Below, in pieces: positions 20,201 through 43,107 of a stretch of 64,000 bases of DNA; positions within the stretch are counted from its first letter, which is position 1, and every line of letters begins with the position of its first letter. A program made the position numbers and the translations under genes. Source of the stretch: Cymbomonas tetramitiformis (Eukaryota; Chlorophyta; Pyramimonadophyceae; Pyramimonadales; Pyramimonadaceae); the NCBI GenBank assembly GCA_001247695.2, contig LGRX02029370.1:1-64000 (forward strand), read 5' to 3'. The notes under the pieces were generated by a model that worked only from the letters and a program-made list of their open reading frames with translations, was not told the origin of the DNA and did no database searches.

Positions 20201-23200
20201 AGTGGGTTTGCCAGGCATATATGATACCGTGGAGCTGCGAGAGGGGGCGTGAGGGGACACCAGGGGGCGGGTTTGCCAGGCATATGATACCGTGGAGCTG
20301 CGAGAGGGGGCGTGAGGGGACACCAGGGGGCGGGTTTGCCAGGCATATGATACCGTGGAGCTGCGAGAGGTGGCGTGAGGGGACACCAGGGGGCGGGTTT
20401 GCCAGGCATATGATACCGTGGAGCTGCGAGAGGTGGCGTGAGGGGACACCAGGGGGCGGGTTTGCCAGGCATATGATACCGTGGAGCTGCGAGAGGGGCG
20501 TGAGGGGGACACCAGGGGGGTTTGCCAGGCATATGACACCGTGGAGCTGCGAGAGGTGGCGTGAGGGGACACCAGGGGGCGGGTTTGCCAGGCATATGAT
20601 ACCGTGGAGCTGCGAGAGGTGGCGTGAGGGGACACCAGGGGGCGGGTTTGCCAGGCATATGATACCGTGGAGCTGCGAGAGGTGGCTTGCAAGATCCACC
20701 AGCTGAACACACAGGTATCCACATGGCGCTGAGCCACCACACCTCGCCCGCAGTGTCTGGGTCCGCATCCGCTCTCCCCCCGCTGCTCCGCCCACTCCGC
20801 GCCTTGCAGAAATAGGCTCTGGCAGTGCGCAAAATCAGAGAGGGCGGTAAAGATGCTGTAACCCTATCGGCGGTATTCGGCATTGGAGGTCGGGATGCTA
20901 TGCATATCTTCCCCCCCGGATGCCTGGTATTTGCACTTTTGGCTGAACAGAAGCGACTTCACTCCCATTGACCTGCACTGTGCCGTAGCCTGGATTCAGG
21001 GTCCGCTGGGCGAGAGGGCAAGCGTATCCCGACCATGCGCCTACCGGGGGGGGTGCCGCAGTGGAGTGAGGCGAAGAAGCAAAACTATGTGAAGCATACG
21101 GTGCGGGAGTACAATATCCACAAGGCGCTGCAGCATCCGAACATTGTGCAGCTATACGATGTCTTCGAGCTGGACGCCAACACGTTCTGTACCATTCTGG
21201 AGTACTGCGAGGGGGGCGACCTTGACAGCTATCTGAAGGTGCGCCCACAGCGGCAGCCCCTGGAGTGCCTCAGTGGAGATGTTCGCTTCGCCTCCTCCCT
21301 GGAAGACCCCCGCTCAAGGCGCTCACTCTGCGGGATGTTGGGGGGGATGAGGGAACAGACGAACCGCATCTTGGGGGAGCGTGAGGCCCGCATCATGATG
21401 ATGCAGGTGGCAGGCCCCCCTTATACCCCATCCCCCCCCTCCCCCGCATTCTGGGATGATGGCAGGCCCACACCAGGATGATGCAAGTCACAGGCTTCTT
21501 GCCTTCGCGCTGCACCCTTATCACAGTGTTACAGATGGACCAGTAGAGGGGCCGACGATGATCCTCTTGGCTGACCCACTCGCGGGTGCAAGGGTGCAGG
21601 TGCTCGCTGGTCTTGACTATGTAGCGGACCCTGAGCGCCGCGTCATCCACTACGACCTTAAGCCCGGTAACATACTCTTTGACCGCCATGGCGTTGTCAA
21701 GATCACTGATTTTGGCCTGAGCAAGGCACAGCCCCGCCCCTTCCCCCCCCTGATCTCAGTGACTGGCGCTGTTCTGCACTAGCCTGCTTCAAGTGCTGAA
21801 TCCGGGCTGCGCCACGCGGGACGGCCCTGAACTTTGCTCTGAGTCAGCTGGTGCGCTCGCGTCGCTAGCAGCCACCGAAGTGGAGGCTTTTGGCATGGCC
21901 GATGGGGGGACTGATCCGCCCGCACCAATCGTGAGATGTCAGTGGTGCCCTCGCATCATTCTCCAGGGTCTGAGCTGGGCCCCTTATTCGCAGTGTTAGG
22001 GGCCGCATGCGGAGGTAGGTATGTCTTTGAGGGGAGCGGCCACACGGCGCGTGCACAGGTGATTGAGGAGCAAGGCGCGGACTGCTTGGAGCTCACGTCG
22101 CAAGGTACGTGACCATCGCCGGGCACTCGCGCAGTGACAGCATGACGGCTCACGCCGGCATCCCCAGCGGACCACCACCGCCGCCGCAAAGCAAAGCCTG
22201 TCGATGGGCGAGACAGAGGACGCAGAGAGAAGGGGCCGCTGCGCCACCTGGCGCACTCTACTCGAGCTGCTGCACGGTTTGGCAGGGCAGGCTGGGTGCG
22301 CCCAACAGCCGACAGGACGTCTCGGAGTGAGGGAGGGAGGGAGGGGATGGCCGCAACCCTGCAGGGGCCGGAACATACTGGTACCTGCCTCCCGAGTGCT
22401 TCGAAGTGGGGAATCGCCCGCCCCAAATCTCCAACAAGGTAGTGTCCCGAAGGCCACAGGCGACCAAGGGCGGTGCTGAATGCCCGGAGGCTTGCAGCAA
22501 GGCGCAGCCAGAGCTCCCAGGGGGTGTACTCCGTGATTGGCAGCATGCCTGGGGGGCAGGGCTGGTGTGCTGGGACAGGACTCCGCCATACAGGGGGACG
22601 GGGCCGGGCAGCTGGCATGGGATGACATGTGTGGGGCATCCTGTGTGGGGCGTCGTGTATGTGATGGCATTTATGGGGTGGCATGTGGGGGCGGCATGTA
22701 TGGGGTGGGCATGTATGGGATGTATGGGGTGGTGTGGCGGCATGTATGGGGTGGCATGTGTGGGGCGGCATGGGGGCGGTGTGGGGGCGGCATGTGTGGG
22801 GCGGCATGTATGTGGCATCGTGCATGGGGCGTCTTGTATGGAGCGTCATGAATTTGCTGTTGAGGATGGCTGGTGTGTTAGGGCTGGAAGCATTTCATAG
22901 TGAGTGGGGGGCACATGCTATTTCGCAACCACTGTATCCTGGAGGCCCTTGCGCCGGTGCAGGGCCTTCTCTGCACGACAGCCGATCGGGGACTGTTGTG
23001 GGGGCCTGGACCCGTGAAATGCCCAGGATGCATTTAATGACCGATTGGGAGGCGGTGTGGTGCGGATATAACTGTGTGAGTCTTAGTGGTCTGTGTGGCA
23101 GCAGAATATGACACTGAGCCGTACTGGTCTGTGTGGCAGCAGAATATGATACTGAGCCGTACTGGTCTGTGTGGTAGCAGAATATGACACTGAGCCGTAC

Positions 23201-24308
23201 TGGTCTGCGTGACAGCAGAATATGACACTGAGCCGTAGTGGTCTGCATGACAGCAGAATATGACACTGAGCTGTAGTGGTCTGCATGACAGCAGAATATG
23301 ACACTGAGCCGTACTGGTCTGTGTGGCAGCAGAATATGACACTGAGCCGTAGTGGTCTGCATGACAGCAGAATATGACACTGAGCCGTACTGGTCTGCGT
23401 GACAGCAGAATATGGCACTGAGCCGTAGTGGTCTGCGTGGCAGCAGAATATGACACTGAGCTGTAGTGGTCTGCATGACAGCAGAATATGACACTGAGCC
23501 GTAGTGGTCTGCGTGGCAGCAGAATATGACACTGAGCCGTAGTGGTCTGCGCGACAGCAGAATATGACACTGAGTCGCGGCGCTGGTGTGAGCCACCGGT
23601 GTGGCAGGTGGATGTTTGGAGCGCCGGTGTGATCTTCTACCAGATGCTTTATGGCCACCGGCCCTTCGGTCACAATTTGTCACAGGTGGGGCCTTCGGTC
23701 ATAATCTGTCACATGTCATTCTGCGCATGCTGCCCACCTCCTTGCCACCATATCGCTGGCGCCCTCTGCAGGCGTGATACACGCATTCACTCTGCGCAAT
23801 GATTTAGGTACGAAGCAGATAGATAGAGAAGTCGCCTGTTTCAAACTCATGATTGGTTCCCTGTGGAGGTGGTATGGATTCAGGAAAAAATCCTGCGAGA
23901 GGAGGTGATCATACGTGCAAACAAAGTGGAGTTCCCCGCCAAGCCAGTGGTGTCTAATGAGGTATGCCCAGCTCGATACAATTTGCAGACTTCCTGCGCG
24001 GTATACTGCATTTGCATTTTTGTGTGCATCGTTTGTTGAATGATGTTTGTCTCTGCGCTGCTCATTCTGCAATTGAAGGTCAATTCGCCAAAACGTCGTT
24101 TCCTCCTTTAATTTCTCCATCTCCTATAACGCAGTGGTATTTCATGAGCATTATAAGAGCCTATGCTTATCTGACTTTGTTCTGGTTTTGTATCCTGCAG
24201 GTAAAAGAATTCATTCAACTCTGCCTGACCCACCGACAAGCAGACCGTCCCGATGTGCGTGCTGCAGCAAATGATCCGTACATTTCGGGTGTGCGAATGA
24301 AGAAATAG
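14216..24308 (+). CDS. TLK: Tousled-like serine/threonine protein kinase
   Basis: Nuclear kinase family that phosphorylates the histone chaperone Asf1 (family knowledge). The first exon 14216-14357 starts [10 protein letters not shown] and has [10 protein letters not shown], like plant Tousled N-termini. Further exons: 14718-14785, 15094-15175 (basic PAKRRKRQ), probably 15773-15980, 17622-17714 and 17860-17955 (coiled coil, [18 protein letters not shown]), 18252-18355, about 18490-18740 ([10 protein letters not shown]...VWEDGAAF block), 18888-19103, 19308-19388, 19633-19692. Kinase domain: 19963-20034 ([20 protein letters not shown], glycine loop), 20655-20714 ([20 protein letters not shown] lysine), 21062-21238, 21359-21406, 21600-21725 (HYDLKPGN catalytic loop, DFG), 22059-22104, 22365-22438 (YWYLPPECF), 23608-23685, 23884-23961, 24201-24308 (stop TAG). 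Phases agree across all kinase-domain exons, so it looks functional. Two donors are GC (after 19388 and 21725). Several introns hold minisatellites. The exons at 15.8-17.0 kb are the least certain. Confidence 0.92.
16020..16275. repeat. 26-bp minisatellite in a kinase intron
   Basis: Imperfect copies of GCGTATTGTGGCCAGAGGGG plus TGTCAT/AA, some interrupted near 16105-16140. Intronic in the kinase gene. Confidence 0.8.
16505..16755. repeat. 31-bp minisatellite in a kinase intron
   Basis: About eight copies of AGCTGTTCCCTGGCCCTGCC + GCACGTCTCAG, nearly identical, with one copy shortened near 16625. Each copy ends CGTCTCAG, a potential splice-acceptor-like AG, but no coding sequence is attached. 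Confidence 0.85.
20216..20690 (+). repeat. 63-bp array made of a kinase exon start and its acceptor
   Basis: Eight tandem units of 62-63 bp, each containing GGGTTTGCCAG (acceptor) followed by the first 32 bases of the kinase exon that begins at 20655 (encoding [10 protein letters not shown]), then GTGAGG, a donor-like sequence. Only the last unit continues into the true exon. The unit therefore contains a decoy micro-exon with both splice signals. Since 32 is not a multiple of three, inclusion would shift the frame. Confidence 0.9.
22620..22850. repeat. G-rich GGGGCGGCATGTATGG-type array
   Basis: Degenerate 10-30-bp repeats of GGGGTGGCATGTGTGG and GGGCGGCATGTATG in the kinase intron between 22438 and 23608. 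The strand is strongly G/T-rich. Confidence 0.75.
23085..23575. repeat. 38-bp minisatellite in a kinase intron
   Basis: About 13 copies of a 38-bp unit (GTACTGGTCTGTGTGGCAGC + AGAATATGACACTGAGCC), with alternative bases at a few positions. It ends about 30 bp before the kinase exon at 23608. Long minus-strand ORFs here are repeat artefacts. Confidence 0.9.
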
Positions 24309-27021: not shown

Positions 27022-27026
27022 CAGTG
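27022..27026. other. Target-site duplication, left copy
   Basis: CAGTG immediately outside the left LTR, matching 40752-40756 outside the right LTR. A 5-bp duplication is normal for Ty3/gypsy integrases. Confidence 0.85.
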
Positions 27027-27719
27027 TGTGCCAGGGGCACGACGACAGATGCTCGGAGATATGTTTTTGATTGAACGTGCAAAGGTACACAATTCGGATT
27101 TTTATAATATACTGGATCAGGGCCAGATTGAGGTACAAACGATAATTCGGTTCCGAGTTCTGAAGGCTAAACACTTCTCAAGTGCTCTACTTATTCACTC
27201 GTCACTCAGGTTGCAGGGTCAACCACTCGAGAGCCGATGTCACACTTCGGCTCAACGTTCAGTTCCCGATCCGATCTCATTTCTAATTCCGATTCGTCAT
27301 TCTCGATTCAGATGTTATGCCAACAGGCTGACACGATGACTGCCCCACAGTACTGTCATACTACTGTACTGTCATACTGTCATACTGTCATAGCGTCATA
27401 CTGTCATACTGTCATAACCTTAATATCTGATATTCGATTTCATTGTCTTTTCAACCCCGATGCGAATCTGACCATTCTTCGAGGGTCTGACTGAGTTCCA
27501 CGATGACACCCCCCACAGTACTGTCATACTACTATAGTGTCATACTGTCATACTGTCATAGTGTCATAGTGTCATACTGTCATACCCCGGACATCTGGTA
27601 TTCATTCTCATCGTGATTTCAAGCCCAATCTCACTGTCATCGTGCCAATCCCAGATTACCCCCGATGACACACATACGGACGCATAGACATATCGGCTCA
27701 CGCTGTGCCTCCGGGCACA
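27027..27719 (-). repeat. 3' LTR (693 bp)
   Basis: Begins TGTGCC and ends GGCACA (perfect terminal inverted hexamers). It contains two tracts of an 8-bp unit TGTCATAC (about 27355-27415 and 27530-27590). The second tract has three more units than in the 5' LTR. Confidence 0.93.
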
Positions 27720-27734
27720 ACTCTCCCCCCCTTA
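27720..27734 (-). other. Polypurine tract
   Basis: Directly abutting the 3' LTR, the minus strand reads AAGGGGGGGAGAGT, a purine-only tract in the position that primes plus-strand DNA synthesis. Confidence 0.8.
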
Positions 27735-27907
27735 GGAGTGGTCTACCTCCTGGGATCACTCCGCTAAGGTACCCATCTAAGTTCCAGTTCTTAGGTTCTC
27801 TGGTTCCTTGCTGTTTCCAGTTCTTAGGTTCTCTGGTTCCTCTTCGAGCATAGTTCGCCTGCCGCTACCAGGGCACCACTTTCAAGAAGAAGGGTGCCAC
27901 TTGGAAT

Positions 27908-28372
27908 CTAAAGCGGGTCTTCAGTGTCGCGGAGGCGTAAATGTCGGAAAAGTTGTCGTAGCAGGAGTGCTGGCACGGGGTATACACTCGCAGATCGACC
28001 TGCTCCAGTCTGCTGCGGGTGAGGTCCAAGCTGAGCAGTCTCTGGGTGAGCACCGGTTGCCCATCTGCACGCACACGGTGTTGAAGTAGTACAGCGTAGC
28101 AGGGGCGAGGGTGGTGCTGAGTTCGTCCATATGCAGGTGGGTTTCATGTACTGCGTACCATACATGCAGTAGGTACACACCAGCGGTGGGGGAAGCTGGC
28201 GCATCATAGGGCGAAGCCGTAGCGCGTTAGGGAAGCGACCTCTGGGGTTTTCCATGAACCAATGTTTTGGCTCTAGGTAGTCAATGATCTGCAATGCTCG
28301 TCGTACGATTTTGTCAGCCTGGGGAAGGTCAGGGGGTCCACCAGTGGTGCGCGCTTGACTGTACTGCCTGCA
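27908..28372 (-). CDS. C5-cytosine DNA methyltransferase, C-terminal part
   Basis: Continuation of the methyltransferase begun at the end of the upstream ORF, one frame back (-1). It opens with C-R-Q-Y-S-Q-A-R-T-T, the catalytic Pro-Cys loop (motif IV). It then has ADKIVRRALQIIDYLEP and WFMENPRG (motif VI, with ENP instead of the usual ENV), a Cys-containing segment CTTSTPCACR, GAHPETAQLGP and a final VYPVPALLLRQLF helix that resembles the end of C5-methyltransferases. It stops at 27908, 189 bp before the 3' LTR. The frame change falls in a run of five C residues on the coding strand (28373-28377). Either a -1 slip during translation or one lost base would explain it; a base-calling error also could. 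The target-recognition region is short, so activity is uncertain. Confidence 0.78.
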   Translation of the reverse strand, partial: CRQYSQARTTGGPPDLPQADKIVRRALQIIDYLEPKHWFMENPRGRFPNALRLRPMMRQLPPPLVCTYCMYGTQYMKPTCIWTNSAPPSPLLRCTTSTPCACRWATGAHPETAQLGPHPQQTGAGRSASVYPVPALLLRQLFRHLRLRDTEDPL

Positions 28373-31300
28373 GGGGGACTTGCCCAAATAACATCGAAGA
28401 ATCCAGGCGGGTATTGCCTGTAGTCCCATTGCAAGATGTCACACACATGAGTGGGTTGCCAGATATGCCCGGAGTCGAGGGTCACCACTGAGGCGGAGGG
28501 GAAGCAATTTAGGAATTCCCTCTCTACTGAGCCAGTACCGCTGAAAAGTACGAGAATCCTGGGCGTGCGGGTTGTTTTTGCCTGTATTGCCAGCAGCTCT
28601 GTCACCAGTGCCAACGACCCATCTTCCACGCGCTCCTGGCGTTCCCACGGCAGGGGGATATCATCTTCCATCTGTTCGAGCTGGTCCAGTTCATCGCAGG
28701 GATTGGTGATGAGGTGGGCCAGTGTCATTCCGGCTTGAGCGGAGTGGCGGCCACGCTGCTCGCGTCGCCGAGTGGCTTCGTCGCGGACTTGCGCTTCCAT
28801 GTGCAGTCTCGCTTGCTCGAATTCACGAAGTTGTTGGAGTGGACCTCCGCGTTCAAGTTTGTCACGCGTCCTCCATTGGTCGTGAGCTTTGGAGTAGCCA
28901 GTCCAGCGAACCTTCCACTCTTCCACCTCCTTTCCTCGAACAGACCGCACTCGACGTGCAAGGATACGCTCAACGTGTGCTTCCTTCTGACCGTCCACTA
29001 CCACCTCTTCAGGTACTGCTAGGTGATCGCGTGCGGCAAAAGCATCTTGACCGCTGGTGTACGGTTTGAGGCGATGTTGAGCGAACACGTCGTGAATCCG
29101 CCAGTGAGGAGGGAGGCGTAGGCGGTAGGCTACTGGAGCTCCTCTGTCGGCCTCTGGCATGGTCATCTGTACATCGCTGAAGAAGCGTTCGGTCACAGGA
29201 ACTGGTCCATGCCAGCGCTTGGTCAGTTTCCTACAGATGGAGCGATCCATCACCTTCTCCGTAAGGTGTTTCGCCTCTATCCAGACCAGATCTCCAACAG
29301 CATACTCCCGCTGCCCGTGTCTGCGATCAAACTGTTCGCGCTGTCGCTGTTGAGCCAGCTCTAACCGCTGTCTGGCGTCCCGCAGCTGCGACGAAAATTT
29401 CACAGCCACTTCGTGTGCGGTGCCTACTCCCCCAGTTCGTCGTCCAGCGGTGGACTGTGCGGCCTCCAGGAAAAGGTCCAACTGCGACAGCGGCGAGAAC
29501 CCGAACACCAGCTCAAATGGCGTGAAGCCAGTAGATTCACTCCTGGAGTCATTGATCGCGAACTCCACGTTAGTGGTGAACAGATCCCAGTCCTCCACAT
29601 TGGCGTCAACAAAGGACCCGAGCATGTCCTCAATAACTCTGTTGCTGTGTTCTGCCTGGCCGTCAGACCGAGGGTTGTACGGCGTGGTACGAGCCACTTT
29701 CACACCCATCAGTCTCATGAGTTCCTGCCAGAAAGCATCTTGAAACCGTGGGTCACGATCAGAGACAATCTTCATAGGCGCGCCATGTAAGCGCCACACC
29801 GAGTCAAAGTAGATTCTGGCCACCACAGCTGCGGAGCTGTCGCCGAAGTTCATCGGCACAACGTGGACCATCTTCGTCAGCTTGCAGGTGAAGGCCACGA
29901 AAGCATCATTGCCCCTCTCTGATACCGGCAGGCCGGTGACGAAGTCCACCGCGACATCCTGCCATGGCCTGTTCGGGATGCTGTGAGGGTTTAGCAACCC
30001 ATCCGGGTAAGTTCCCCGCGGTCTCACCGATTGGCACACTGCGCAGGATGCAACCCAGGTGCCCACATCTTCCGCGGCACCACGCCAATAGAAGCGTCGC
30101 AGCACCCTCTCCAGAGTCTTGTCTCGCCCAGTGTGGCCTGAGGACAATGACTCATGAGCATGGCGAATCACTACTTCTCGAAGTGGAGAGTCCTCCCCCA
30201 GCACCAACTGATATCTCCCTGCTGCGGTCCTCCAAACCACTTCACCCACCAGCCTGAAGTCCTGTAGGCATTGGTGTGGTGCCGCCTTCACTTTCTCCCG
30301 CAGCGAACGAAGTGTCCCCTCTCGGGTGTACTCCGCTTTCAACGCACGCAGGAACTTTGAGTCCGACTGCTGGGAGGTTGCGTCTCTGAAGGCTGCTGCC
30401 TCACCTGTCCTTATCACAGCGGGGGCCGTTCGCGGGTGCCTCACGCGTGCCGGCTGTGGTTTGGCGGGAGGGGCGTGTACTATCAGAACAGGCCAACGAA
30501 GGTCGAAGGCCTTCCCATCTGGGTTCTCGAAGAACTGATTGGGCTCGCCCTTTTCATCGTGAGTAGGGATGACCTCCACGATCTGCATATTGGCCTTTCT
30601 GAAAAGTTTGCGCCACGCGGGGAGCTTGGACTGGTGATCTGGTAGGACGAAGATTGCTGAGGTGTTTTCTGGGTCTGCCTTCCATTCTGCGATATACTTG
30701 TTCAAAATCGCCTCTACCGTAATGTGCTTGGAGTTATATGGAGGGTTACACCAAACCCGAAGGCCCCTCCATTTCTCTGAAAGGCAGTCTGTCCAGAATC
30801 TATCCGCCTGTCTGTTGCGGCCGCCAAAGTCACAACAGGCGTCCACATCGAAGGGTCCAAACTTCTCGGCGTACTTCGAGGAGTACTCTGCTCGGACACG
30901 CCAATTCTGTGAGTCTTCGGGGGGAGTCTGCCGTTTTTGCGGGTGAAGGACCGGGGATGGAGCTGACTGCTGGGGCGCCTGCTGCGGGGGTGGTGAGCTC
31001 ACTGGCACCTTCTCAGTGGGCGCCTCCGATGCGTCAGCTCGTGATGGCGTTCGCGTCTTCGGTGACGCCAACTGTGGAGGCGCTGGGGTCGTAGAGGCTC
31101 TTCCAGCGCGTGACATGCTCCTCGTTATCCTTATCTGAGGTGGAGCTCTGTCAGGGGGTTGGTGTGGAGCTTCTGTCGGCTTCGCGCTATCAGCTTCAGG
31201 CCAGTCAGGCATGTCGAAGTCGAGGTGATCCTCCTTCATTCCCTTATAGAGCTTCGGATTAACGAGAGCGATGGTCTCCCCCATGTCCATGGCCTGTTCC

Positions 31301-31917
31301 GCCACGGAGAGGGTCTCCACTGCTGAGAGCCAACAGTCAACCGTCTGAGCCCAGTGGGGATGAGCTGCGGGTGGTGAGCTGGAGAAGCATTCAGACTCCA
31401 GCGTTGCCAGAGGGTCTTTCGGCAGGTCTGAGGTGGGGTCGATCACTCCTGCCTCCTTCAACCCCTCGCGAACGTCCTTGTCTTTGAAGTCGGGTCTTCT
31501 GGACAGGGCGTCTGGTACCAGCAGCAGCGCTCCCTTGATGTACTCCATTCTCGGGACTCCCACCTCCACCAGATCCATGTACCAGCGTGCCTGTCTGCGG
31601 CTAAGCTCTCTGCCAGGTTCCATCAGCCATTCAAGGGGGCGGTGATCACCCTGGATGCGGAAGTTGGTGAAGATGAGGTAATGCCGCCAGGTGACGGTGG
31701 TACAGTGGTGTAGAGCACCTAGCTCACGCTCGCCGGTGTGGTAATTCTGCTCGGCGGCTGAGAACTGGCGGCTCTCGTATGCTATCACGCGCAGCCCAAG
31801 ACCATCTCCATTGTCTTGCATAAGTACTCCCCCAAGAGCGATGCCGCTAGCATCCGTCTGCACCACGAAAGGCGCTGTGCCGTCTGCGGCACCCTTAATG
31901 TTGGGCAAGGCGAGCAC
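28373..31917 (-). CDS. Pol: RNase H, Dam-like MTase, integrase, chromodomain, MTase N-part
   Basis: Counting residues from the GTG at 31917: RNase H 1-140 (QTDASG, DALSRR). A Pro/Ser linker follows. The phage-type N6-adenine methyltransferase domain is at about 336-484 (FDVDACCD at 356, catalytic NPPY at 391-394, genomic 30736-30747, FVLPDH at 423). Integrase zinc module: H588, H595, C625, C628. Integrase core: D658, D720, E756, i.e. the D-D-35-E spacing. A GPxF/Y-like C-terminal module surrounds 900-950. Chromodomain about 975-1035 (WKVRWTGY). Linker. C5-methyltransferase motif I (LVLFSGTGSVEREF) at 1122-1135, ending at the SPP of motif IV (1180-1182). Read-through in this frame to 28273 gives unrelated residues, so the useful coding ends at about 28373. 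The ORF has no ATG at its start and follows the RT ORF in the +1 frame. Confidence 0.9.
30466..30912 (-). other. Dam-like N6-adenine methyltransferase domain
   Basis: About 149 residues inserted in the linker between RNase H and integrase. Visible hallmarks of the phage Dam family: F-D-V-D-A-C with nearby acidic and aromatic residues, W-R-G-L-R-V-W-C-N-P-P-Y (DPPY-type catalytic motif as NPPY), a hydrophobic strand FVLPDH and a final RWPVLIVH strand. The domain is in frame with RNase H and integrase with no stop, so it would be translated as part of Pol. DIRS-type retrotransposons are known to carry Dam-like domains; Ty3/gypsy elements are not usually described with one. Confidence 0.8.
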
Positions 31918-33775
31918 TGGCGCTGATGGTGAGGGCCTTCTTCAGCTCCTCGAAGGCCCACTGCTGCATGGGACCCCACTCCCAGGGTACGTCCGACTTG
32001 GTCAACCGGGTGAGGGGCTGAGCGATCTCGGAGAAGCAGTGGATGAACCTGCGGTAATACCCCGCTAGGCCCAAGAACTGCCTGACGTGGGTAACCGTCT
32101 CCAGCTCGGGCCAGTCCCTCACTGCAGCCACCTTGTCGTGTTGGGGTCTGCAGCCATCTGCGGAGATACAGTGGCCAAGGAACCGCAAGGATTTCTTCAA
32201 CAGTTGGCACTTGGACCTCTTGAGGAAGACGCCCTTCTCCCTGCATGTCAGGAGCAGTTGCTTGACGTGCTCGTAGTGCTCTGCAGCGGTGTTGCTGAAG
32301 ACGACCACGTCATCGATGAAGATCCGGACAAATGGGAGATGGCCCAAGGCCCGCTGCATCCGTCGCTGGTACTGAGATGGTGAATTCTGCAGCCCCTGCG
32401 GCATGACCAACCACTCATATGACCCCATCTGGGTGGTGAAGGCGGTCTTCTCGACATCTCCTGGTGCCATCGGCACTTGCCAGAAGCCATCCACCGCGTC
32501 GAACGAAGAGAAGAACTTCGCACCCTGCATCTCGTCGAACATCATCTGGATGTCTGGGAGAGGATACTTGTCCTTAACTGTCTGGCGGTTGAGGAGCCGG
32601 TAATCGATCACCAGTCGCAGCTCCTTGGGGTTCCCGGGTTTAGGGACCATCAAACAGGGAGCTGCATAAGGACTGGAAGAGGGTCGGATGTAGCCCTTGG
32701 ACATCAGAGTCTCCACGCGTTCTCGAAGTTGGCGGAGTTCCTCTGCGGACTTCTTGTAGATGCGCTGGCAGGGAGGTCCCTTCTTGCTCAGCTCAGGGTC
32801 CAGGTTAATGTTGGCTTCATCTTGGGGGTCATGTCTGAGTCCATCGATGTTCGGTAGAGCAGTCGTCATCTCCTTCTTGTACTCCTCACCCCAGAAGTCC
32901 TGAAACTTGAGGGTCCACTCAGGGCTCACTTCTGCATCTTCAGTATCCGCAGCGGGTTCGGCGTTCTCAGAGTCGATAGCCGTGGCTGCAAAGGCAGAAG
33001 CAGTATCGTCGGGGGACTTCTCGGCCACCATGAGCCAGGCGGGCTGTATCTCCGGGTCGTCATTGCCGCGTAGCTTCTGCGTCTCCGCGTACACCAGGTA
33101 CTTCTTCAGCTGGGCAGGGGTTAGGAACACCTCATCCACCAATCCCGCGCAGGCCGTGCCCTTCGGAGACCTGTCCCCAGATGCTTTCCCAGGAGAACAG
33201 CCTGTGATGGTGACGCGATCCCCAATCTTGCCACTGCGGGACTTCCTGAGGAAGGAGACGGAGCCATTCCCTTCATAGCCCAGAGTGACAGGAGAGTGAC
33301 TGCGCAGCCACCTTCCGCCGAGGATAACATCCACCTGTATGCCCAGTGGTAGGATCCGGAGGGCAAGGGCGTTCTCCGTATAGGTGCCCGTGGTGGTGTG
33401 CGTGTTAAACTTGGCGTACGCGGTGGCGCCAGTGATCTTCACAGATCCATCCGCCAGGGTGACTCGCATCTCGGAGCCGGCTCGTGTTGTGAGGCCACAT
33501 CGCTTAGCGCTCTGCTCCGAGATGAAGTTGTCAGAGGCCCCCGAGTCAATCAGCACCTTGACCGTGTGCCCTCTGAGGGTTGCGTAGAATACCAGCAGTA
33601 GCGGTCCTTCTTCGTCATGTGCCGCTGCAAGGGTACCCTCGATGTCGGTCTTCCACTGAACTCCCCCATCTGTGCGTATGCTTTTGCACTTGAGGTTGGG
33701 GAGGAGGTTGTCCGAGGCCTCGCGGCATTCTTCCAACGTTTGCCTACACGCGGCGTAGAACTCCTCATCCAGCAA
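31895..33775 (-). CDS. Pol: aspartic protease and reverse transcriptase
   Basis: Residues from the first listed start (a TTG at 33775). Retropepsin around 60-160 with D-S-G-A-S at 77-81 and an ILGGRWL flap-side motif at 151. RT about 345-575 with RPSSSPYAAP, LRLVIDYRLLN, motif A FDAVDGFWQV (D426), MPQGLQNSPSQYQ, motif C F-I-D-D at 486-489 (catalytic D488, D489) and LGHCISADG. All catalytic residues are present. No ATG is suitable. The frame is open upstream for at least 30 codons and overlaps the end of ORF2 in the -1 frame, so expression by -1 frameshifting from ORF2 is likely. At its 3' end the RT frame hits a stop at 31895, while RNase H continues in the +1 frame. The overlap window is about 31895-31940. 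Confidence 0.9.
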   Translation of the reverse strand: MLDEEFYAACRQTLEECREASDNLLPNLKCKSIRTDGGVQWKTDIEGTLAAAHDEEGPLLLVFYATLRGHTVKVLIDSGASDNFISEQSAKRCGLTTRAGSEMRVTLADGSVKITGATAYAKFNTHTTTGTYTENALALRILPLGIQVDVILGGRWLRSHSPVTLGYEGNGSVSFLRKSRSGKIGDRVTITGCSPGKASGDRSPKGTACAGLVDEVFLTPAQLKKYLVYAETQKLRGNDDPEIQPAWLMVAEKSPDDTASAFAATAIDSENAEPAADTEDAEVSPEWTLKFQDFWGEEYKKEMTTALPNIDGLRHDPQDEANINLDPELSKKGPPCQRIYKKSAEELRQLRERVETLMSKGYIRPSSSPYAAPCLMVPKPGNPKELRLVIDYRLLNRQTVKDKYPLPDIQMMFDEMQGAKFFSSFDAVDGFWQVPMAPGDVEKTAFTTQMGSYEWLVMPQGLQNSPSQYQRRMQRALGHLPFVRIFIDDVVVFSNTAAEHYEHVKQLLLTCREKGVFLKRSKCQLLKKSLRFLGHCISADGCRPQHDKVAAVRDWPELETVTHVRQFLGLAGYYRRFIHCFSEIAQPLTRLTKSDVPWEWGPMQQWAFEELKKALTISASARLAQH

Positions 33776-33822
33776 ATCAACATCTTCAGTCGGATGACTG
33801 ACGAGGTTGTCTGCACTCGCCG

Positions 33823-35475
33823 TCAGCAGGGTGCCCGCTGAGGTGCATTCGCTCGAGGTGGGCTGACATGAGTGGTGTCGCTGGTGGTAGGGCTCACATG
33901 GGTGGTGTCACTGGTAGTAGGGCTCACATGTGTAGTGCCACTGGTGGTAGGGCTAACATGGGTAGTGCCGCTTACTGTGGGGCTCACGTGGGTAGTGCCG
34001 CTTGTTGTGGGGCTCACATGGGTAGCGACACTATTGGTGAGACTGCCATGGGTGAGAGGATCCTCGTCATGCTGAGGGCTGCCAGCAGGGGAGTTGTGGG
34101 CGAGCTGGTGGGAGCTCTGGTGGTCAGTTCTCGTCTGAGGGGTCCCAGCTGCTGCCATCTGCTGGGTGAAGCAGAGCGAGTTGACCGAGGACTCCTCTTC
34201 CATCACCTCAGGGTCTTCAGCGATGGGGTGGCTGTCGAGACAGGGTGGCGCTTCATCCGCTTCATGCGTTTTGACGGTGGTCATCTGCTGGGTGAAGCAA
34301 AGCGAACTGGGTGCGGAGGTCTCCTCCGCCTCTGAGCAGTAGGATGAACCTTCGGGGTTTCCTCCCGGAGTGGCCGGCGCGTTATCATGGTGCGAAGATG
34401 TAGTCTCTGTTGTGGGCTCGGCCAGCGAGGATGATGGAGGGGATGCTCCCAAGGGGCTGGGACCCAGCTTCCTCATCTTGTACCGGTGTACTGCGTGCAG
34501 ACTGCACCAGGCGCCAGGTAGACCCACATCTCCCGCTGTCCCAGGTATCGTGCCCACTTCAGTGTCCAGGGTGCAGAGGGATGTCGAAGACCTCGCTGCT
34601 GCCCTTCGTGCGCCCTCCTTTTCCCACAGCCTGCTACCTGGGGAAGAGTCTGGACTCGAAGTGGCGATTGCCTTTTGCTGCTCGGCAGGCGACAGCTCTC
34701 TCCAAGCCGCGTAGAGGTCGTGGGAGCTAGTGTTAGAGGATTCGGGGACTTGCTGGCGACCGTCGTGTGAAAGGAGGTGCCACAATGCTATGCGCTGATG
34801 GCCTTCCTTGCGATCTTGAGGTTCGCGGGCAATGCGTATCCTCTCTGCCAGCTGGTTGGCGCGGTTCACGCGCTCCTTTGGCGATCGACTCCCAGAGTGT
34901 ACGCGGCTGCGGACGCGCTCCGACATCTTATCCACCAGGTCCTTGGCAGCCTCTGGGGACTTGCGCAGAGCTCTGCGGACCTTCTGCATGGCGACTTCGA
35001 GGGGGAGGGAGTACAGATCTCTCTTCCAGTGCCACGCAGTTAGCCTTTTCCGTGGGTCTGCGAGGTTGGACTGATAGATGGGCAGCGGTAGGACAACACG
35101 CGGTCGGGGGCGAAGGTCGCGGGGCTCTCCGCGGTTGTTGCCCATAATGGGGGGTCTGTGCCGGGGAACTCGCCGTCCCCTCCGACCCTCAATCCTCGCT
35201 TGTGTATAAGCGGGGCCGTCATCAAGAGGTAGCGACGGCTCATCGAAGGGGGTGCTTCCTGCGAGAGGGTGGCTGGACAAGTCATCCCTCGGCGGCGATG
35301 GGGCACCAGCTGAGCGGTAGGTGCGTCGCAAGCGGGTCCCAGAGGTGAAGGCCACACTCTTGGGGTGGGGACGTTGGCCCCAAGGGTCTCTGCGTCCTCG
35401 GGCGCGTCGGGGTTCCACTGGTTCTGACCGCTTCTCCAGGGCGGAGAGGGTCTGATCATCAGGGCAAGACCTCAC
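33823..35475 (-). CDS. Retrotransposon ORF2, unknown function
   Basis: 550 codons in the same frame as gag, separated from it only by the gag TGA and 13 further sense codons, so it may be the C-terminal part of a gag read-through product. It has a basic, helical N-half (DKMSERVRSRVHSGSRSP, NQLAERIRIA, WHLLSHDGRQ), then an acidic/Ser-rich half with a duplicated SLCFTQQM motif, and a C-terminal array of a 10-residue THVSPTTSGT-like repeat (six or more copies, 33860-34020). No known domain was recognised. Structural or nucleic-acid-binding accessory roles are possible; this is inference. It ends at 33823, overlapping the open pol frame. Confidence 0.7.
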   Translation of the reverse strand: MRSCPDDQTLSALEKRSEPVEPRRARGRRDPWGQRPHPKSVAFTSGTRLRRTYRSAGAPSPPRDDLSSHPLAGSTPFDEPSLPLDDGPAYTQARIEGRRGRRVPRHRPPIMGNNRGEPRDLRPRPRVVLPLPIYQSNLADPRKRLTAWHWKRDLYSLPLEVAMQKVRRALRKSPEAAKDLVDKMSERVRSRVHSGSRSPKERVNRANQLAERIRIAREPQDRKEGHQRIALWHLLSHDGRQQVPESSNTSSHDLYAAWRELSPAEQQKAIATSSPDSSPGSRLWEKEGARRAAARSSTSLCTLDTEVGTIPGTAGDVGLPGAWCSLHAVHRYKMRKLGPSPLGASPPSSSLAEPTTETTSSHHDNAPATPGGNPEGSSYCSEAEETSAPSSLCFTQQMTTVKTHEADEAPPCLDSHPIAEDPEVMEEESSVNSLCFTQQMAAAGTPQTRTDHQSSHQLAHNSPAGSPQHDEDPLTHGSLTNSVATHVSPTTSGTTHVSPTVSGTTHVSPTTSGTTHVSPTTSDTTHVSPTTSDTTHVSPPRANAPQRAPC

Positions 35476-35514
35476 TTCCCCGAAGGGCAGGGTCTGGGGC
35501 TGGCCGCCGGCCAG

Positions 35515-38426
35515 TCATTCATCGCTCTCCACCGGGGGAAGGCCGTCACCCTCCACAAGCTCGATGCCCGCAAGGGCCGCCAGGGTCTGATAGCTCTGCT
35601 CGTCCTCACAGGTAGCGAGAGCCAGGACCTCCTCGGAGAACTCTTCTGGGCCGCCATCCACCGAGGAGATGTCCTCCTGCTGCTCGATGGCCCAAACGAC
35701 GGCGGCTACAAACCCAGGGGAGTTCGCCAGTCGAGCGGGTGCATTGGCCCTCCACTCCTTGAGTTTAGCCTCGTCCGTACAGTTACGGACGATGTGCTCC
35801 TCAGAGCCGCAGGCGAAGCACCGGCGGACTTTCGGAGCGTCAGGGCGGGAGAGGCCAGGTGGTGGTGGCAAAGGAGTCACTGCCGCGGCGACGGTGGTGG
35901 CAGGCCCGTTCTCCAGCATGGCAAGAGCTGGGCGGCTCGAAGAGGGGGTACGCCTGTAGAAGGGGGTGCGAGGTGGTGGGTTAGCGAAGGAAACAGCACG
36001 GGGAGGACGGTCTTGAGAGCGCCTCTGAGCCGCCTCCGTGTCAATGTCACTCTCCACCTCCTCAGCAACTTCCCGAATCTTCAATAAGGCGTTGTGGGTG
36101 CCTGGGATGTCGTCAGCGACGGCCTTCCTCTCCCACTCTTCTGGTTTGGAGACATCCAAGTGGATGGCTCTCAGGCGCCGCATCACCTTGGGTGCATATT
36201 TCAGCCCCCGGCGGTACGTAGAGAGCATCGACAAGTTGGTCATCTCCACGCAATTTGGGACTCTGCTGGCCAAGAAGTTGACGGAGGCCATGCGGGTCTC
36301 CAGTCGCGAGAAATACTCCGCCGCGGTCTCGTTCACCGCCTGCTTCAGGGCAATGGCCTCGCCGTGTGCGTTCTCCAGGTAGGCCTGCGTCAGAGAGCAC
36401 ACCGCCAGATCGCTGAAGAACACGTCCAGGTCCCCGTAGCGTTGGTGCCAAGCTTGCTCGGACCCAAAGGTCCCTGCCGCGCGCTCCAAGAACTTTCTCT
36501 GCTGGTCTTGAAGAGTGTACTCCTTGAAGCTCCAAAGAAGGCTTGACACACTCGCCTGGTACTCTGATACTGATGGCGTACAACTGGGAGTGGTCTGTGC
36601 TTCGATCACGATGGCCTCCTGGAATACCTTCCGCACCATGTGGGAGTAGTGCTCCAACTGCGTCAGGAGGCCCTCCTTGTCGGCCGATTTTGTGTCGGAC
36701 GCGGAGCGGGGAAACCTGGTGACGCTCTTGACCAGCTTTAGCACCATCTCTTTGGTCTTGTGCTCCAGGCGGACCTCGTCTGGAGATGCTCGCAGGTTAG
36801 TGCCCTGCGGCAGACGGACGATGCCTGGAACAAAGGGGGTGGCACTGGGAGAGAGCACGGGGTTTGCAGCGGCGGCAGAGTGAACGGGGTTCACGGTAGC
36901 GGCAGAGTGAACGGGGTTTGCGGCGGCGGAATGGGGAAAACGGGCAGGAGGTGATGGTCCCGGGGCATGCGCGGGCGGAGGCGCAGGCGCGGGATTTGTG
37001 GGGACTGCGGTCGGAGTGGGCGGTAATGTAGGGGCTGATGGTGGTGCGGGGAGTGGAAGAGGTGTATGGAAGGGCAGGGATGTGGATGGTTGTGCGGCCA
37101 CCACGCTCATGCTCCGGTACCAATCGGAGTTGCTGACCTCCGACCACGCGGCGAGCCCGTCCTGATCGAAGTTCTGCATCTCCGACTCCCGCGCAGTAGC
37201 AGGGATCCACTCCCACACTGGCTGCCCCATGCTGGTAGACCGCACATTGGCCGCGGCCGGGTCCCCCATTGCCATATCCATGACCTCGCGGTCGACCATG
37301 AGGACCCAGGTCTCCACACGAGGGTTGGTAAGGGGTAGGGGTGCATGGTGTAGCCGGCCCCCCATGCGCGCATATGCAGTCAGCGGCGCTCCCAGCAGGG
37401 GCATGATCCTGAACAAGATGGCGTCGCCCTGCACCCCAGCCCGGCGGCGTTCGTCCCATGGTAGGGAGACGGTTGCCGCGCCTCGCACCCCAGCTGACTG
37501 ATGCACCCACAATGACCCACCATCGTGGGTGACGAAGAGGGCTCTGACCTCTGGGTATTGAGGGTAGGAGGGCTCTGGTGCGGGATCGTCAGGGGGATCC
37601 TGAGGTGGATCACCAGGGGGGCCTGGTGGCGAGTCGCTTGGACTGGAGTCTCTGGGCTCTGAGTCGGGGTTGCCACCGCCGTGCACCACCGTCTCCATCG
37701 ACTGCCGCCGGCGGGCCACCATCATGTTATGGGGATTTGGCCGGCCCTGAGTGGGAGGTTCGGCGGGAGCGGTCTCAGCGGCGGTCTGAGGCACTGGAGG
37801 GGTTACGCTGGCGGCGGCGTCTGCCTCGTGTAGATGGTCCGCCGTCAGGCCCTGTGCGCTGCCCTGAGGGTCGCCTGGTGGGGAGACTCCTGCCGACGTC
37901 GTCGCACCAGGCAGCGCGAGTCCTCTTGAGAGCACCGCGGAGATGTCCAGGGCCTGTACTGCCGCTAGGACTTCTCTGCGAATGTGTTCACTTCGGCTGC
38001 TCGCGTCCGAGTCAGAGCCGGACCTGTGGGCGGCCCTCCGCCTGCGCTCAGCTCGTGCCTGCGTGCTTCGGCTGCCTCTGGTCCCCGTGCTGGTGCGGCT
38101 GATGTCCGTGCCAGAGTCGGGGTCAGAGTGATCAGGTGCGTGGCTTGGACCTGGGAGATGCTTGCCGTGTGTCGCAGGGCCCGAAGATGCCCTTCGGGAA
38201 CGCCGACGCCGGCGAGTCTCTGAGGTTGTCGCCACCGCGGGAAGGTGACGCACCAAGAGCTGGGTACCGCCCAAGACGTTCTGCTGAACCCTGCTGTCAA
38301 GGGGTACCTGCAGAGGGTCCGGCAGGGCCGCGGCGCCGATGCTGATGAAGTGCTGCAGCGATGAGGGATCCGCGCCTGAGTCATGAAGCACGGAGGTGGC
38401 TGGCGCCAGCTGATGGGGCTGCTGTG

Positions 38427-38458
<32 letters not shown>

Positions 38459-38940
38459 TGCTGTAACTGCTGCTGCATCGGTTCCAGTGGCTGCTGCTGA
38501 AGCCACTGCTGTTGCTGCTGCTGGTACGCGAGCCACTGCTGCTGCTGCTGTAGCTGTTGTTGGAACGGTGTGGGATATGCGCCCACGGGGTGATGGGTTC
38601 CCAGTGTGAACGGCACTGGTGATACTCCCCCAGCGAGGGGCGCTGATTGGGGCAATACCCAATTGACGCCGTTCCATACAGCCTGTGCGGGGGTGCCATC
38701 CGGCATAGTATAAGGGCGGGGCACCGCTGTGTAGGGCATGGTGGTGCCTGGGTGTGGAATGGGGTGAGCGGAAGCATATGTGGTGGGCGATGGGAAGGTT
38801 ATGGGAGAGAACAGAGTGTGGTGTAGCTGCTCTGCGCTGACACTCATGCTGGGAAATGCCTCTGATGTCTGCTGTGACATCCTGATTGCTGAGCTGGTTG
38901 AGATCAAGGACTGGGTGTGGCAATAGCCACAGGTGAGCAA
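35515..38940 (-). CDS. Retrotransposon Gag with CCHC zinc knuckle
   Basis: 1141 codons from the ATG at 38940; an alternative start is Met21 (MSQQTSEAF). The N-terminal third is Gln-rich, with runs of CAG/CTG-type codons (38401-38580). It is followed by Ser/Arg-rich and Pro-rich stretches. A helical capsid-like region occupies roughly 700-960 (LVKSVTRFPRSASDTKS, FERAAGTFGSEQAWHQR-like, VNFLASRVPNC). The zinc knuckle is C1041-x2-C1044-x4-H1049-x4-C1054 (CFACGSEEHIVRNC). The protein ends ESDE with TGA followed by C, a weak termination context. Gag is usually much shorter in this superfamily; the long low-complexity N-terminus is unusual. Confidence 0.88.
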
Positions 38941-40067
38941 AGTGGTGAGTGCTCGCCTTTTTTATTTAATTAGTCTCGTCCTCTTCGATGTCGCTCGCTG
39001 GAGGCGAAGGGGCGGGACTTCCAGGTGGTGATGGGGGAACCCAATCAGCGCCAAGGAGGACCCAAGGGGGGGCGTCGATCACTTGTATTGCCTGGAGATG
39101 CCACACGTGGTCGTAATGTGCTGGTGGGATAGCCAGCGTGACTATATCCAGGCGCTCAGTTCTCCTCCTCGTCGTCAGAGGAAGAGGGGGAAGGAGGACC
39201 GCTCCAAGGACCGCTCTGCCAGAAGGCGCCTGCTGGTGGGTAGGTGGGGTCTGGAGGGAATACCCACTTGATGGGTCCTTGTTTCCACCACGCTCTTCTG
39301 TATTCTTCTGGCGAAGGGGGTACTGCCATGCACCGGCGAACTCAAAATTTCGCCAGGGCTCCGCGACACAGATTTCAAGTGCCTATGTATGCAGGCAGGG
39401 GTCAAGGAACTGCAACCAGAAAGCTCAGCAAGGTCCCAGAAGGTAACCGGACTTCGTACACTCCCAAAATATCCCAGCCAGAGGGTAAACCAGAGGTGTC
39501 CAGAAACTGTCCAGAAACTGTCCAGAAGCCACTAAAAGAGCTGTTTTGAGGGGCTTTCCCAGCTGCTGGTGGCCGTGAGGGCGGTATTGGGGGGTTCTAG
39601 GGTGTTCTATGGGGTCTGGGGAAGGAGTTTTTGGTGGTGGGGGCTACTGTGGAAGGTTTCGGGGTAGGCTGAAAACGGGCTAACACGGCTATTTTGGGCT
39701 GTTTTTGGCTGTTTTTCGCCTTTTTAAGGCTCTAGAAAGTGGGCTATGAGGTTTTCCTGGCTACTATAAACCGGGGAAACCCTTTAGGGTGCTCCCTGAC
39801 GGTTGTTTGTAGCCTGGGGCAGACTTGGAAGTTAAGATCGGAAAACGAATGCTGACTTTTTTGAGCCTGGTTGGGCCCCCAGTGTTAAGGGGCGAAAATA
39901 TGAAGTTTTGGAGATGTTTTCCAAAGGATACGGCCGTTGTATACGAAAAAAATGTACTTACGGAGGCTAAAATTGCGCCCAGATAGCCGGAAGTGCAGCT
40001 CTCCCCCTGTATTACAACGGAAGTTACAAAAGGCCCGTGGGCGAGTTGCGCAGAGGCGAAATCGCAG

Positions 40068-40080
40068 CACGCTGATACCA
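40068..40080 (-). other. Primer-binding site, initiator Met tRNA type
   Basis: Two bases inside the right LTR the minus strand reads TGGTATCAGCGTG. The TGGTATCAG core is the usual complement of the initiator-methionine tRNA 3' end used by plant-type Ty3/gypsy elements. Confidence 0.82.
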
Positions 40081-40082
40081 AA

Positions 40083-40751
40083 TGTGCCAGGGGCACGACG
40101 ACAGATGCTCGGAGATATGTTTTTGATTGAACGTGCAAAGGTACACAATTCGGATTTTTATAATATACTGGATCAGGGCCAGATTGAGGTACAAACGATA
40201 ATTCGGTTCCGAGTTCTGAAGGCTAAACACTTCTCAAGTGCTCTACTTATTCACTCGTCACTCAGGTTGCAGGGTCAACCACTCGAGAGCCGATGTCACA
40301 CTTCGGCTCAACGTTCAGTTCCCGATCCGATCTCATTTCTAATTCCGATTCGTCATTCTCGATTCAGATGTTATGCCAACAGGCTGACACGATGACTGCC
40401 CCACAGTACTGTCATACTACTGTACTGTCATACTGTCATACTGTCATAGCGTCATACTGTCATATTGTCATAACCTTAATATCTGATATTCGATTTCATT
40501 GTCTTTTCAACCCCGATGCGAATCTGACCATTCTTCGAGGGTCTGACTGAGTTCCACGATGACACCCCCCACAGTACTGTCATACTACTATAGTGTCATA
40601 CTGTCATAGTGTCATACCCCGGACATCTGGTATTCATTCTCATCGTGATTTCAAGCCCAATCTCACTGTCATCGTGCCAATCCCAGATTACCCCCGATGA
40701 CGCACATACGGACGCATAGACATATCGGCTCACGCTGTGCCTCCGGGCACA
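40083..40751 (-). repeat. 5' LTR (669 bp)
   Basis: Same ends (TGTGCC...GGCACA) as 27027-27719. Nearly identical apart from a C/T near 40464, an A/G near 40702 and three fewer TGTCATAC units. Promoter elements were not identified. Confidence 0.93.
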
Positions 40752-40756
40752 CAGTG

Positions 40757-41756: not shown

Positions 41757-43107
41757 TTAATCCCGATGGCCGAAGTCGATTCGCTTCTTCGGCCGCCACT
41801 CACTTGGCAAAGGGCCCAACCGTGACGCCAGACTCGGCTTATCCCCATGCTGAGGGCCCTCCGCATTCTCCTCCCAGCTGCTGGAGCGCCGCTTCTTCAG
41901 CAAGGTCCTCAAATCCCGGGAGCCCTCCTGCCCGTGCTGGTAGCGGCAATTGCCCCCCTTGAAGCACCCCTCTGGCGTATTGAAGTATCGGCAAAGCGGG
42001 GTGCCCTTGCCAATCCCCATGCTGCTGCTGCCGCCCCCTGGACCACTGGACCGGGATGGATCCAGCCTGTCCCACTCGAGTGGAAGCCGCTCATCCCGCA
42101 CCTCCCGCTCATCCCGCACCTCCCGCAGGTCCCTGTCCCGAGGCGGAGGCTCGTCGCTGAGGTATGACGGAGGCTTCCATCTATCATGTGACCACCCCAC
42201 CACAGGATCATGGGCCACGTGTCGCTCGCGTGACCTCTCCCTCGGAGGACCCGTCCCCCATTCCTGCTGCCGCCGCGATGGCCCGCTGCGGTTGCTACCC
42301 CCGTGCGGCTCCCAGTCGCGGTCACGCTCGCGGCCTTGGCGATGTTCTGGACTGCGGCTCCGGTCATTCCAATGCCGGTCGCTGCCCCGCCACGGTGAGG
42401 TCGCTTGCTTGTCTCGGTCGTCCCCCCTGAAAGGCCTTGGAGCCACCTCAACGGGCATTGCCAGCGCGCGGCGCGGCGGCAACGCGGCACCCGGATAGCG
42501 TGGGTCCTCGTGGAGGAAGCGGCACACCGGCCCCTTTGCACAGCCATCCTTTCCTTTGTATCCGAAGAAGAACATGCAGAGGCGGTTCTTGGTGAGATAG
42601 CCTGGATCAGAGTGCTCCGCGGGCGCCTCCGACACGGAGGGGGGGCCTGCCAAAGATGCCTCTCTCCCCGGCATGTCCCTCTTCTCACAGGCCACAGGCC
42701 TCCTTTGGATTTCCGCAGACAACGTGGAAGAACCTCCGTGGTGTGACTGCAAGCTCTCAACCATCTTTGTCGCTGCCACAGATTGCCCGGGCTTTTCCCC
42801 GAGCCCACTGAGTTGCTGCGCGATGTGCGGCAATTTCTTGGGGGGGCTGTCTCCAGAAGGGACTCTGACAACGGGTACAGTCGGGCTTGGTGTTTGGATG
42901 GCGCTTCCGGCATCCCCATGTGATTGGCCAGCCTCGGGACGGGTCAAGTCCTCGAAGAAGTTGTCCACAGCCACCTGCTGTTCACGGTCATGCTTCCAAT
43001 CGTGCAGGTCGTTGTGGTTGTGGGAGAACCGGCACTTGTCACCGTTTTTGCACATCTGCCTCGTCACGCCCATCGCGCCCACACCGAAGAAGAACCGGCA
43101 CGGCACA
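41757..43107 (-). CDS. CCCH-type zinc-finger protein, three fingers
   Basis: A single long exon starting after acceptor ATTTTTAG (43108-43109) and ending with TAA at 41757. Three CCCH fingers are visible: C-x15-C-x5-C-x3-H (PCRFFFG... MCKNGDKCRFSH), C-x11-C-x5-C-x3-H (LCMFFFGYKGKDGCAKG then PVCRFLH) and C-x8-C-x5-C-x3-H (LCRYFNTPEGCFKGGNCRYQH). Between fingers 2 and 3 is an Arg/Asp/Ser-rich region (RSRSPEHRQGRERDRDW, REVRDEREVRDE). The tail is Lys/Arg-rich. CCCH proteins of this build usually bind RNA and act in mRNA processing or decay (family knowledge). No start codon lies close to the acceptor, so a 5' exon is missing, and none was found with confidence in 43.1-44.4 kb. Confidence 0.8.

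Follow-up and report, generated by a model that had tools for sequence, protein, structure and literature searches.

Retrotransposons of the DIRS type with a PF05869 adenine methyltransferase were reportedly described by Goodwin and Poulter in 2004, and we know of no methyltransferase in the known chromoviruses, in which, as in the element described here, a chromodomain lies at the C-terminus of the integrase. Reports on related systems, cited throughout from the parts of their texts that were available, place the PF05869 adenine methyltransferase of DIRS elements in Pol together with reverse transcriptase (RT) and RNase H (PMC3783388), and describe in Klebsormidium nitens a long terminal repeat (LTR) Gypsy element, KnitGypsy-Dnmt3, with a C5-cytosine (C5) methyltransferase in its Pol open reading frame (ORF) and reported purifying selection (de Mendoza et al. 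2018, PMC5890265). In addition, a ParB-methyltransferase protein has been found in an algal DNA transposon (PMC12477816). The 64,000-nucleotide stretch analysed here (the window; positions 1 to 64,000 of contig LGRX02029370.1 of Cymbomonas tetramitiformis) carries a Ty3/gypsy retrotransposon, and the two METHYLTRANSFERASES of its Pol are a Dam-like adenine methyltransferase domain and a C5 methyltransferase domain. An earlier note made from the sequence alone had proposed this pairing, and the identification of a chromodomain Ty3/gypsy Pol with a phage-type Dam and with a C5 methyltransferase holds on the evidence of PF05869, of phage protein families (phrogs) and of recurrence in related proteins; all of the motifs that it named were found where it had placed them. 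The roles that it suggested for the two domains (marks on the cDNA or at the insertion site, self-silencing, a tag against nucleases) are conjectural.

The Cymbomonas element resembles KnitGypsy-Dnmt3, likewise a Gypsy element with LTRs whose Pol includes a C5 methyltransferase (PMC5890265). However, the C5 domain of KnitGypsy-Dnmt3 is described as Dnmt3-related, whereas that of the Cymbomonas element has PPC and ENP motifs and a phrog_757 match and shares its Pol with a Dam-like domain; in the available text of that report the word 'chromodomain' does not occur, and adenine methyltransferases are named for DIRS elements only. SymbioDIRS-Dnmt3 and SymbioLINE-Dnmt of dinoflagellates are also retroelements with a captured C5 methyltransferase, but their backbones are those of DIRS and LINE elements, and a Dam-like domain is not mentioned for them in the same available text (PMC5890265). 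DIRS elements share the family PF05869 in Pol beside RT and RNase H, but they use a tyrosine recombinase and lack both an aspartic protease and a DDE integrase (PMC3783388), whereas the Cymbomonas element has a protease, a DDE integrase, LTRs and a 5-bp target duplication; an assignment to DIRS was ruled out by the protease, the DDE integrase and the LTRs. A Gypsy element with C5 (Klebsormidium) and DIRS elements with Dam are already known, and their meeting in one chromodomain Gypsy element would be the new part. No description of a Dam-like and a C5 domain in one retroelement was found among the best-ranked matches in the full-text literature, which mostly excludes subscription papers and does not cover Repbase, nor in the available parts of PMC12344493 and PMC12695648.

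The Dam-like domain lies in frame between RNase H and the H2C2 finger of the integrase (Table 1). The Pfam Dam profile PF05869 matched it with E = 1.4e-7 within the ORF and 4.4e-8 for the domain alone, exceeding the curated gathering score, with a match that spans the profile only up to position 78 of 169, under half; phrog_111 ('DNA methyltransferase') matched it at 5e-11, which bears out the earlier note's assignment of positions 30466-30912 to the Dam family. The NCBIfam model phage_N6A_met reached 1.7e-4 and 21.2 bits, far short of its cut-off of 97.05. An AlphaFold model of the domain (predicted local distance difference test, pLDDT, 89.8) has a methyltransferase fold and resembles the phage Dam and PCIF1 adenine methyltransferases; its top fold matches are N6-methyladenine (m6A or 6mA) methyltransferases, and E. 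coli Dam and T4 Dam were absent among the 50 fold matches listed. By profile score, NPPY motif and modelled m6A methyltransferase fold, the domain is a member of the phage-type Dam family; DNA as its substrate is putative, because the fold is also near that of PCIF1, an RNA cap adenosine methyltransferase. A tblastn search with the domain in 50,697 phage records picked out 462 of them at E values up to 1, the lowest value listed being 4e-3; a scan of viral contigs gave one distant Dam match (L001), and a scan of genome contigs gave seven pattern matches and no relative.

Protein searches returned 21 proteins among 166 candidates, 22 among 573 and 5 among 88, giving 37 distinct relatives, designated here by P numbers. 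Twelve of the 37 (P0001, P0002, P0003, P0006, P0007, P0009, P0011, P0013, P0024, P0025, P0026 and P0031) contain both catalytic motifs, CNPP[YF] and ASPPC, so that both domains occur in other copies, as the earlier note's reading requires. Seven of these come from the NCBI entries of C. tetramitiformis, three from ENA, one from JGI and one from EukProt. Because the domain order, shared by many families, and the motifs recur in this way, chance is ruled out, and an assembly artefact or a chance fusion was rejected on the same co-occurrence across four sources. Over the aligned parts, the window Pol shares 98.7% of its residues with P0001, 93.5% with P0006 and 90.5% with P0002, as suits an origin of the window in this alga or a close relative. 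In P0024 (2077 aa) and P0031 (1846 aa), a single protein extends from the protease through C5. Of the other 25 relatives, many are gene models or contigs in which one of the two regions is missing.

The C5 domain of the window copy is not one unbroken reading frame. The ORF at 28273-31917 is in frame down to 'ASPP' (28372-28383), and from the following 'C' the protein runs in the frame of the ORF at 27908-28429, a frame change at 28372 that falls inside the PPC motif. The window Pol changes frame twice more, once ahead of the protease and once between RT and RNase H, and the frame changes of this copy may be sequencing errors. A programmed frameshift at this motif as a rule of the family was rejected, since P0001 (98.7% identical over 877 residues) and others read through it in one frame; in the window copy itself there may be one. 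The earlier note's 'one polyprotein' is therefore correct for the family, where relatives read through, and fails for the window copy. For its C5 assignment of 27908-28566, the window itself gives support through a phrog and not through Pfam: PF00145 matched neither window piece, but phrog_757 ('DNA methyltransferase') matched the second at 2.5e-11, and among eight scanned relatives with the PPC part, PF00145 scored above its cut-off in four (P0001 with 8.5e-6, P0002, P0003 and P0022) and below it in the other four (P0006, P0026, P0031 and P0032). A C5 model of low confidence (pLDDT 63) had 49 C5 methyltransferases by title among the 50 fold matches listed, the remaining one being a putative prophage DNA modification methyltransferase. 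Relatives have the C5 fold and motifs I, IV (PPC) and VI (ENP), which in the window are split over two frames. The best matches of the domain are DNMT2 among PDB sequences and phrog_757 among phage families, while the low-confidence model is nearest DNMT3.

Protein-level identities were compared among P0024, P0009 and P0031, which represent three families. Identity was 66-70% for Dam, 61-70% for C5, 66-78% for RT, 76-80% for integrase and 47-61% for the chromodomain, compared with 25-30%, 43-52% and 16-34% for the RNase H-Dam, Dam-integrase and chromodomain-C5 linkers; in these families, the conservation of Dam and C5 roughly equals that of RT and exceeds that of the neighbouring linkers. Motif retention was scored only where a hidden Markov model (HMM) alignment reached the motif (a Dam match was present in 34 of the 37 proteins, a C5 match in 24), and there the motifs were kept without exception: CNPP[YFW] in 27/27, PPC in 17/17, ENP in 16/16 and KPTxIWT in 7/7. 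In a ten-row set with all three segments present (P0001, P0002, P0003, P0007, P0009, P0011, P0013, P0024, P0026 and P0031; the window itself, P0022, P0025, P0027 and others were left out), pairwise distances correlated at r = 0.90 for Dam with integrase, 0.93 for C5 with integrase and 0.87 for Dam with C5, C5 being its first 103 residues. The corresponding values were 0.87, 0.85 and 0.77 in a seven-protein subset without near-copies and P0013; an eight-protein subset gave 0.84 for Dam with C5, and an intermediate run gave 0.92 for C5 with integrase. Permutation p was up to 0.005 for these chosen rows. Read most simply, a single ancestral Pol would have had both domains, which then diverged together; retention of both in the family is supported by the protein-level conservation.

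The remaining relatives provide a contrast. The tails of seven relatives without a C5 match, all predicted models, mostly end before or shortly past the chromodomain, and no clear case of a main-clade protein running well past the chromodomain without C5 was seen among them; in P0015 the start of C5 motif I is visible by eye before the tail diverges. A sister lineage (P0020, P0021 and P0035) retains CNPPY. P0020 stops earlier than the other two, and P0021 and P0035 are Gypsy proteins with a chromodomain match below the cut-off and, in the place of C5, a C-terminal region of 187-236 residues without FSGTGS, PPC or ENP. Kinship of this tail with C5 is only hinted at by hhalign (probability 3.7%, E 0.011), and the region may be a pseudoenzyme. 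P0030 (EukProt) combines a PCIF1-like domain (PF12237, 1.2e-15) with an RNase H match under the threshold and the start of the C5 of this family, and probably reflects a gene model that joins two elements. In C. tetramitiformis, four scaffolds have a coverage above 10,000x, compared with a modal scaffold coverage of 21x, and three of the four encode matches to chromodomain, RNase H and cytosine DNA methyltransferase; in the available text they are not joined into one element and a Dam domain is not mentioned (PMC5741210). These scaffolds are probably pieces of such elements, and the family may therefore be among the most abundant repeats of this alga, whose genome is published.

The element as a whole has the features of Ty3/gypsy retrotransposons, namely TG...CA LTRs, a short target duplication, a primer binding site (PBS), a polypurine tract and the order protease-RT-RNase H-integrase, the latter within the single protein P0031. 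Its Pol reads N-terminal extension, protease, RT, RNase H, Dam-like domain, integrase zinc finger and core, SH3-like domain, chromodomain and C5, and the chromodomain at the integrase C-terminus marks it by domain order as a probable chromovirus. The PBS looks like the initiator-tRNA-Met type. Alignment of the two LTRs by BLAST shows two point differences and by MAFFT three, one of them a CpG/TpG change, and their repeat length differs by 24 bp; because they differ at so few positions, the window copy appears to be a fairly recent insertion. The Gag ORF is 91% identical to P0006 over 578 residues. The Pol N-terminal extension is 50% identical to part of P0004 and has a repeat-rich tail (THVSPTTS...).

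Table 1. Positions of the retrotransposon and its parts in the window
Feature	Position	Strand	Evidence and remarks
Whole LTR retrotransposon, 13,725 bp	27027..40751	(-)	LTR pair, target duplication, PBS, polypurine tract, Gag-Pol ORFs
Target-site duplication CACTG, 5 bp, upstream copy	40752..40756	(-)	sequence
5' LTR, 669 bp, TG...CA	40083..40751	(-)	
PBS TGGTATCAGCG	40070..40080	(-)	sequence, expected place
Gag ORF, 1141 aa	35515..38940	(-)	CCHC knuckle 35776-35823, Pfam score just under cut-off
Pol N-terminal extension, 550 aa, without known domain	33823..35475	(-)	joined to protease in gene model P0004
Protease and RT ORF	31895..33775	(-)	protease 33314-33583, PF13650, 1.8e-11; RT 32171-32647, PF00078, 2.6e-32
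RNase H	31567..31878	(-)	PF17917, 3.6e-27
Dam-like adenine methyltransferase domain	30463..30912	(-)	PF05869, phrog_111, AlphaFold model; FDVDACC 30832-30852, catalytic-type CNPPY 30736-30750
Integrase	29671..30189	(-)	H2C2 zinc finger 30016-30189, PF17921, 2.8e-17; DDE core 29671-29970, PF00665 (rve), 1.8e-5, under its cut-off
Chromodomain	28813..28977	(-)	PF00385, 5.6e-7
C5 N-terminal part (FSGTGS ... ASPP)	28372..28560	(-)	in frame with Pol; FSGTGS 28528-28545
C5 remainder (C...ENP...KPTCIWT...GAHPETAQLG)	27908..28375	(-)	frame of ORF 27908-28429; phrog_757; 99% identical to P0001 residues 878-1032; ENP 28238-28252, KPTCIWT 28124-28144, GAHPETAQLG 28025-28054
Polypurine tract AAGGGGGGGAGAGT	27720..27733	(-)	sequence, expected place
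3' LTR, 693 bp, TG...CA	27027..27719	(-)	
Target-site duplication CACTG, 5 bp, downstream copy	27022..27026	(-)	sequence

The Dam tree comprised 28 rows, with nine named rows and matches under 60 positions left out, and it set the retroelement Dam domains apart from five phage rows (99/98), with long branches flagged by the program; it did not separate Gypsy, the DIRS-like P0037 and P0036 from one another. P0037 (CYMTET_7505) is a DIRS-like Cymbomonas protein with RT, RNase H and Dam and without integrase, and because the Dam of the element also follows RNase H, a transfer from a DIRS element to Gypsy is plausible, with the P0037 type as a possible donor. In P0036, also a Gypsy Pol, Dam stands between protease and RT, a placement which suggests that Dam entered Gypsy elements more than once. 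A PHD finger precedes the integrase in P0036, another chromatin reader beside an apparently separate Dam capture. The C5 tree, which took in 10 of the 24 element rows, 40 of the 54 distinct viral ones and no Dnmt3 reference, placed the element C5 domains in one group against the 40 viral rows (100/100), with the bootstrap not settled and the root arbitrary; C5 matches in the phage and viral collections showed 26-41% identity. On viral contig L081, a Dam-type ORF adjoins an element-type C5 gene (24-431 and 484-969).

As to function, we give an even chance to the proposal that both methyltransferases act on the element cDNA before integration. On this view, a chromodomain Ty3/gypsy family of the Cymbomonas lineage has acquired the Dam-like domain between RNase H and integrase and C5 at the end of Pol, and has kept both; the identity and order of the domains, their divergence in step with integrase, the retained catalytic motifs and the conservation above that of the linkers are observed. 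Lying in one polyprotein with RT, RNase H and integrase, both enzymes would be packaged with the template and would methylate the new double-stranded cDNA in the particle or the pre-integration complex; the cDNA would then reach the nucleus already marked, so as to resemble host DNA or to block host nucleases and deaminases. Methylation of cDNA has been proposed for C5-bearing DIRS elements (PMC5890265). A broader reading, in which one self-contained polyprotein reads host chromatin through the chromodomain while its Dam and C5 write 6mA and 5-methylcytosine on the element's own nucleic acid, is possible but doubtful; if true, every new copy would receive a tag of two letters that identifies it, before or during integration. 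That two chemically different writers and a chromatin reader were kept during divergence suggests that the element has a use for marking in itself. Retroelements may have captured DNA methyltransferases for self-silencing, for mimicry of host DNA or for protection of cDNA; this family, whose combination recurs in diverged relatives, is a good test of the reason, and the P0021/P0035 lineage, with its Dam motif kept and its C-terminal region free of C5 motifs, offers a natural contrast.

Several observations weigh against a family that retains both enzymes and marks its cDNA with them. The C5 domain is interrupted by the frame change in the window copy; any movement of this copy would predate that change or have relied on the proteins of intact copies. 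The missing C5 motifs in P0021 and P0035 indicate that not every relative depends on C5 activity. In a first distance run that included broken and partial rows, Dam and C5 correlated at only r = 0.31 (p = 0.12, n = 12) and C5 and RT at 0.61 (p = 0.25, n = 4), the other pairs giving 0.87 for Dam with integrase (n = 16), 0.62 for C5 with integrase (n = 15) and 0.94 for Dam with RT (n = 8). The ratio of observed to expected CpG is 0.74 in the internal part, 0.95-1.00 in the LTRs, close to the 0.79 and 0.91 of the flanks, with no strong deamination signature, and GATC is mildly low in the element (41 seen, 51.9 expected). With respect to composition (CpG, GATC and LTR differences), no methylation footprint that decides between mechanisms was found.

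Among the alternatives to cDNA marking, it seems rather unlikely, but is worth weighing first, that the chromodomain guides the integrase to methylated heterochromatin and the methyltransferases extend marks over the new copy and its surroundings, as target-site marking or self-silencing, so that insertions are quiet and tolerated. C5 stands directly behind the integrase chromodomain in Pol, as such a role would have it, and the family profile of the chromodomain matches HP1/CBX (best E 5.5e-4). On the other side, alignment shows the first aromatic residue of the cage, assigned by its usual positions, to be substituted and the other two retained, so that reading of methyl-lysine is uncertain. 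Silent KnitGypsy-Dnmt3 copies carry CHG/CHH methylation (PMC5890265), and transcripts related to the over-represented C. tetramitiformis scaffolds are, in the available text, not over-expressed as a whole (PMC5741210), both of which agree with target-site marking.

That the Dam-like domain is instead a PCIF1-like RNA enzyme, methylating adenosine in the element RNA (for example next to the cap) as an aid to translation or packaging and leaving DNA to C5 alone, we consider unlikely. The modelled fold is near PCIF1, but the sequence favours Dam: PF05869 was found in 14/14 members (best 7e-13), whereas PF12237 (PCIF1/CAPAM) gave 13.7 bits against a cut-off of 31.1. Six of 17 matches among viral models (E up to 1e-3) are named phage (DNA) N-6-adenine methyltransferases, with a best value of 2.6e-8, the other 11 being one 'Methyltransferase', one uncharacterised protein and nine unnamed ones; proteins named PCIF1 appeared there only at 7e-3 and 1.1e-2. 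A search of the PDB by sequence alone found no methyltransferase for the domain, but it may just be that this database contains no solved structure of a phage enzyme of the PF05869 family.

It is improbable that one or both domains were kept for binding or structure, as a nucleic-acid chaperone or an integrase partner, and not for catalysis: the region without C5 motifs does persist in P0021 and P0035, but catalytic-type motifs are present in every main-clade protein whose HMM alignment reaches them. A benefit to the host, with the methyltransferases marking or disabling large DNA viruses of algae, has been proposed generally for transposon methylases (PMC6338049), but no result here supports it and selection on the element itself is the simpler account of the conservation, which makes it a very remote prospect.

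Outside the element, an ORF of 500 aa with a CCCH zinc-finger match (41757-43259, minus strand) adjoins it and is probably a host gene, and an ORF at 62695-63969 (minus strand) has a sub-threshold match to the transposase family DDE_Tnp_1_7. Self-comparison of the window revealed repeat arrays and duplications at 20204-20686, 23077-23574, 52345-53366 and 5596-9373, with repeat steps of about 63 bp, 38 bp and 181 bp and a 1.3-kb duplication.

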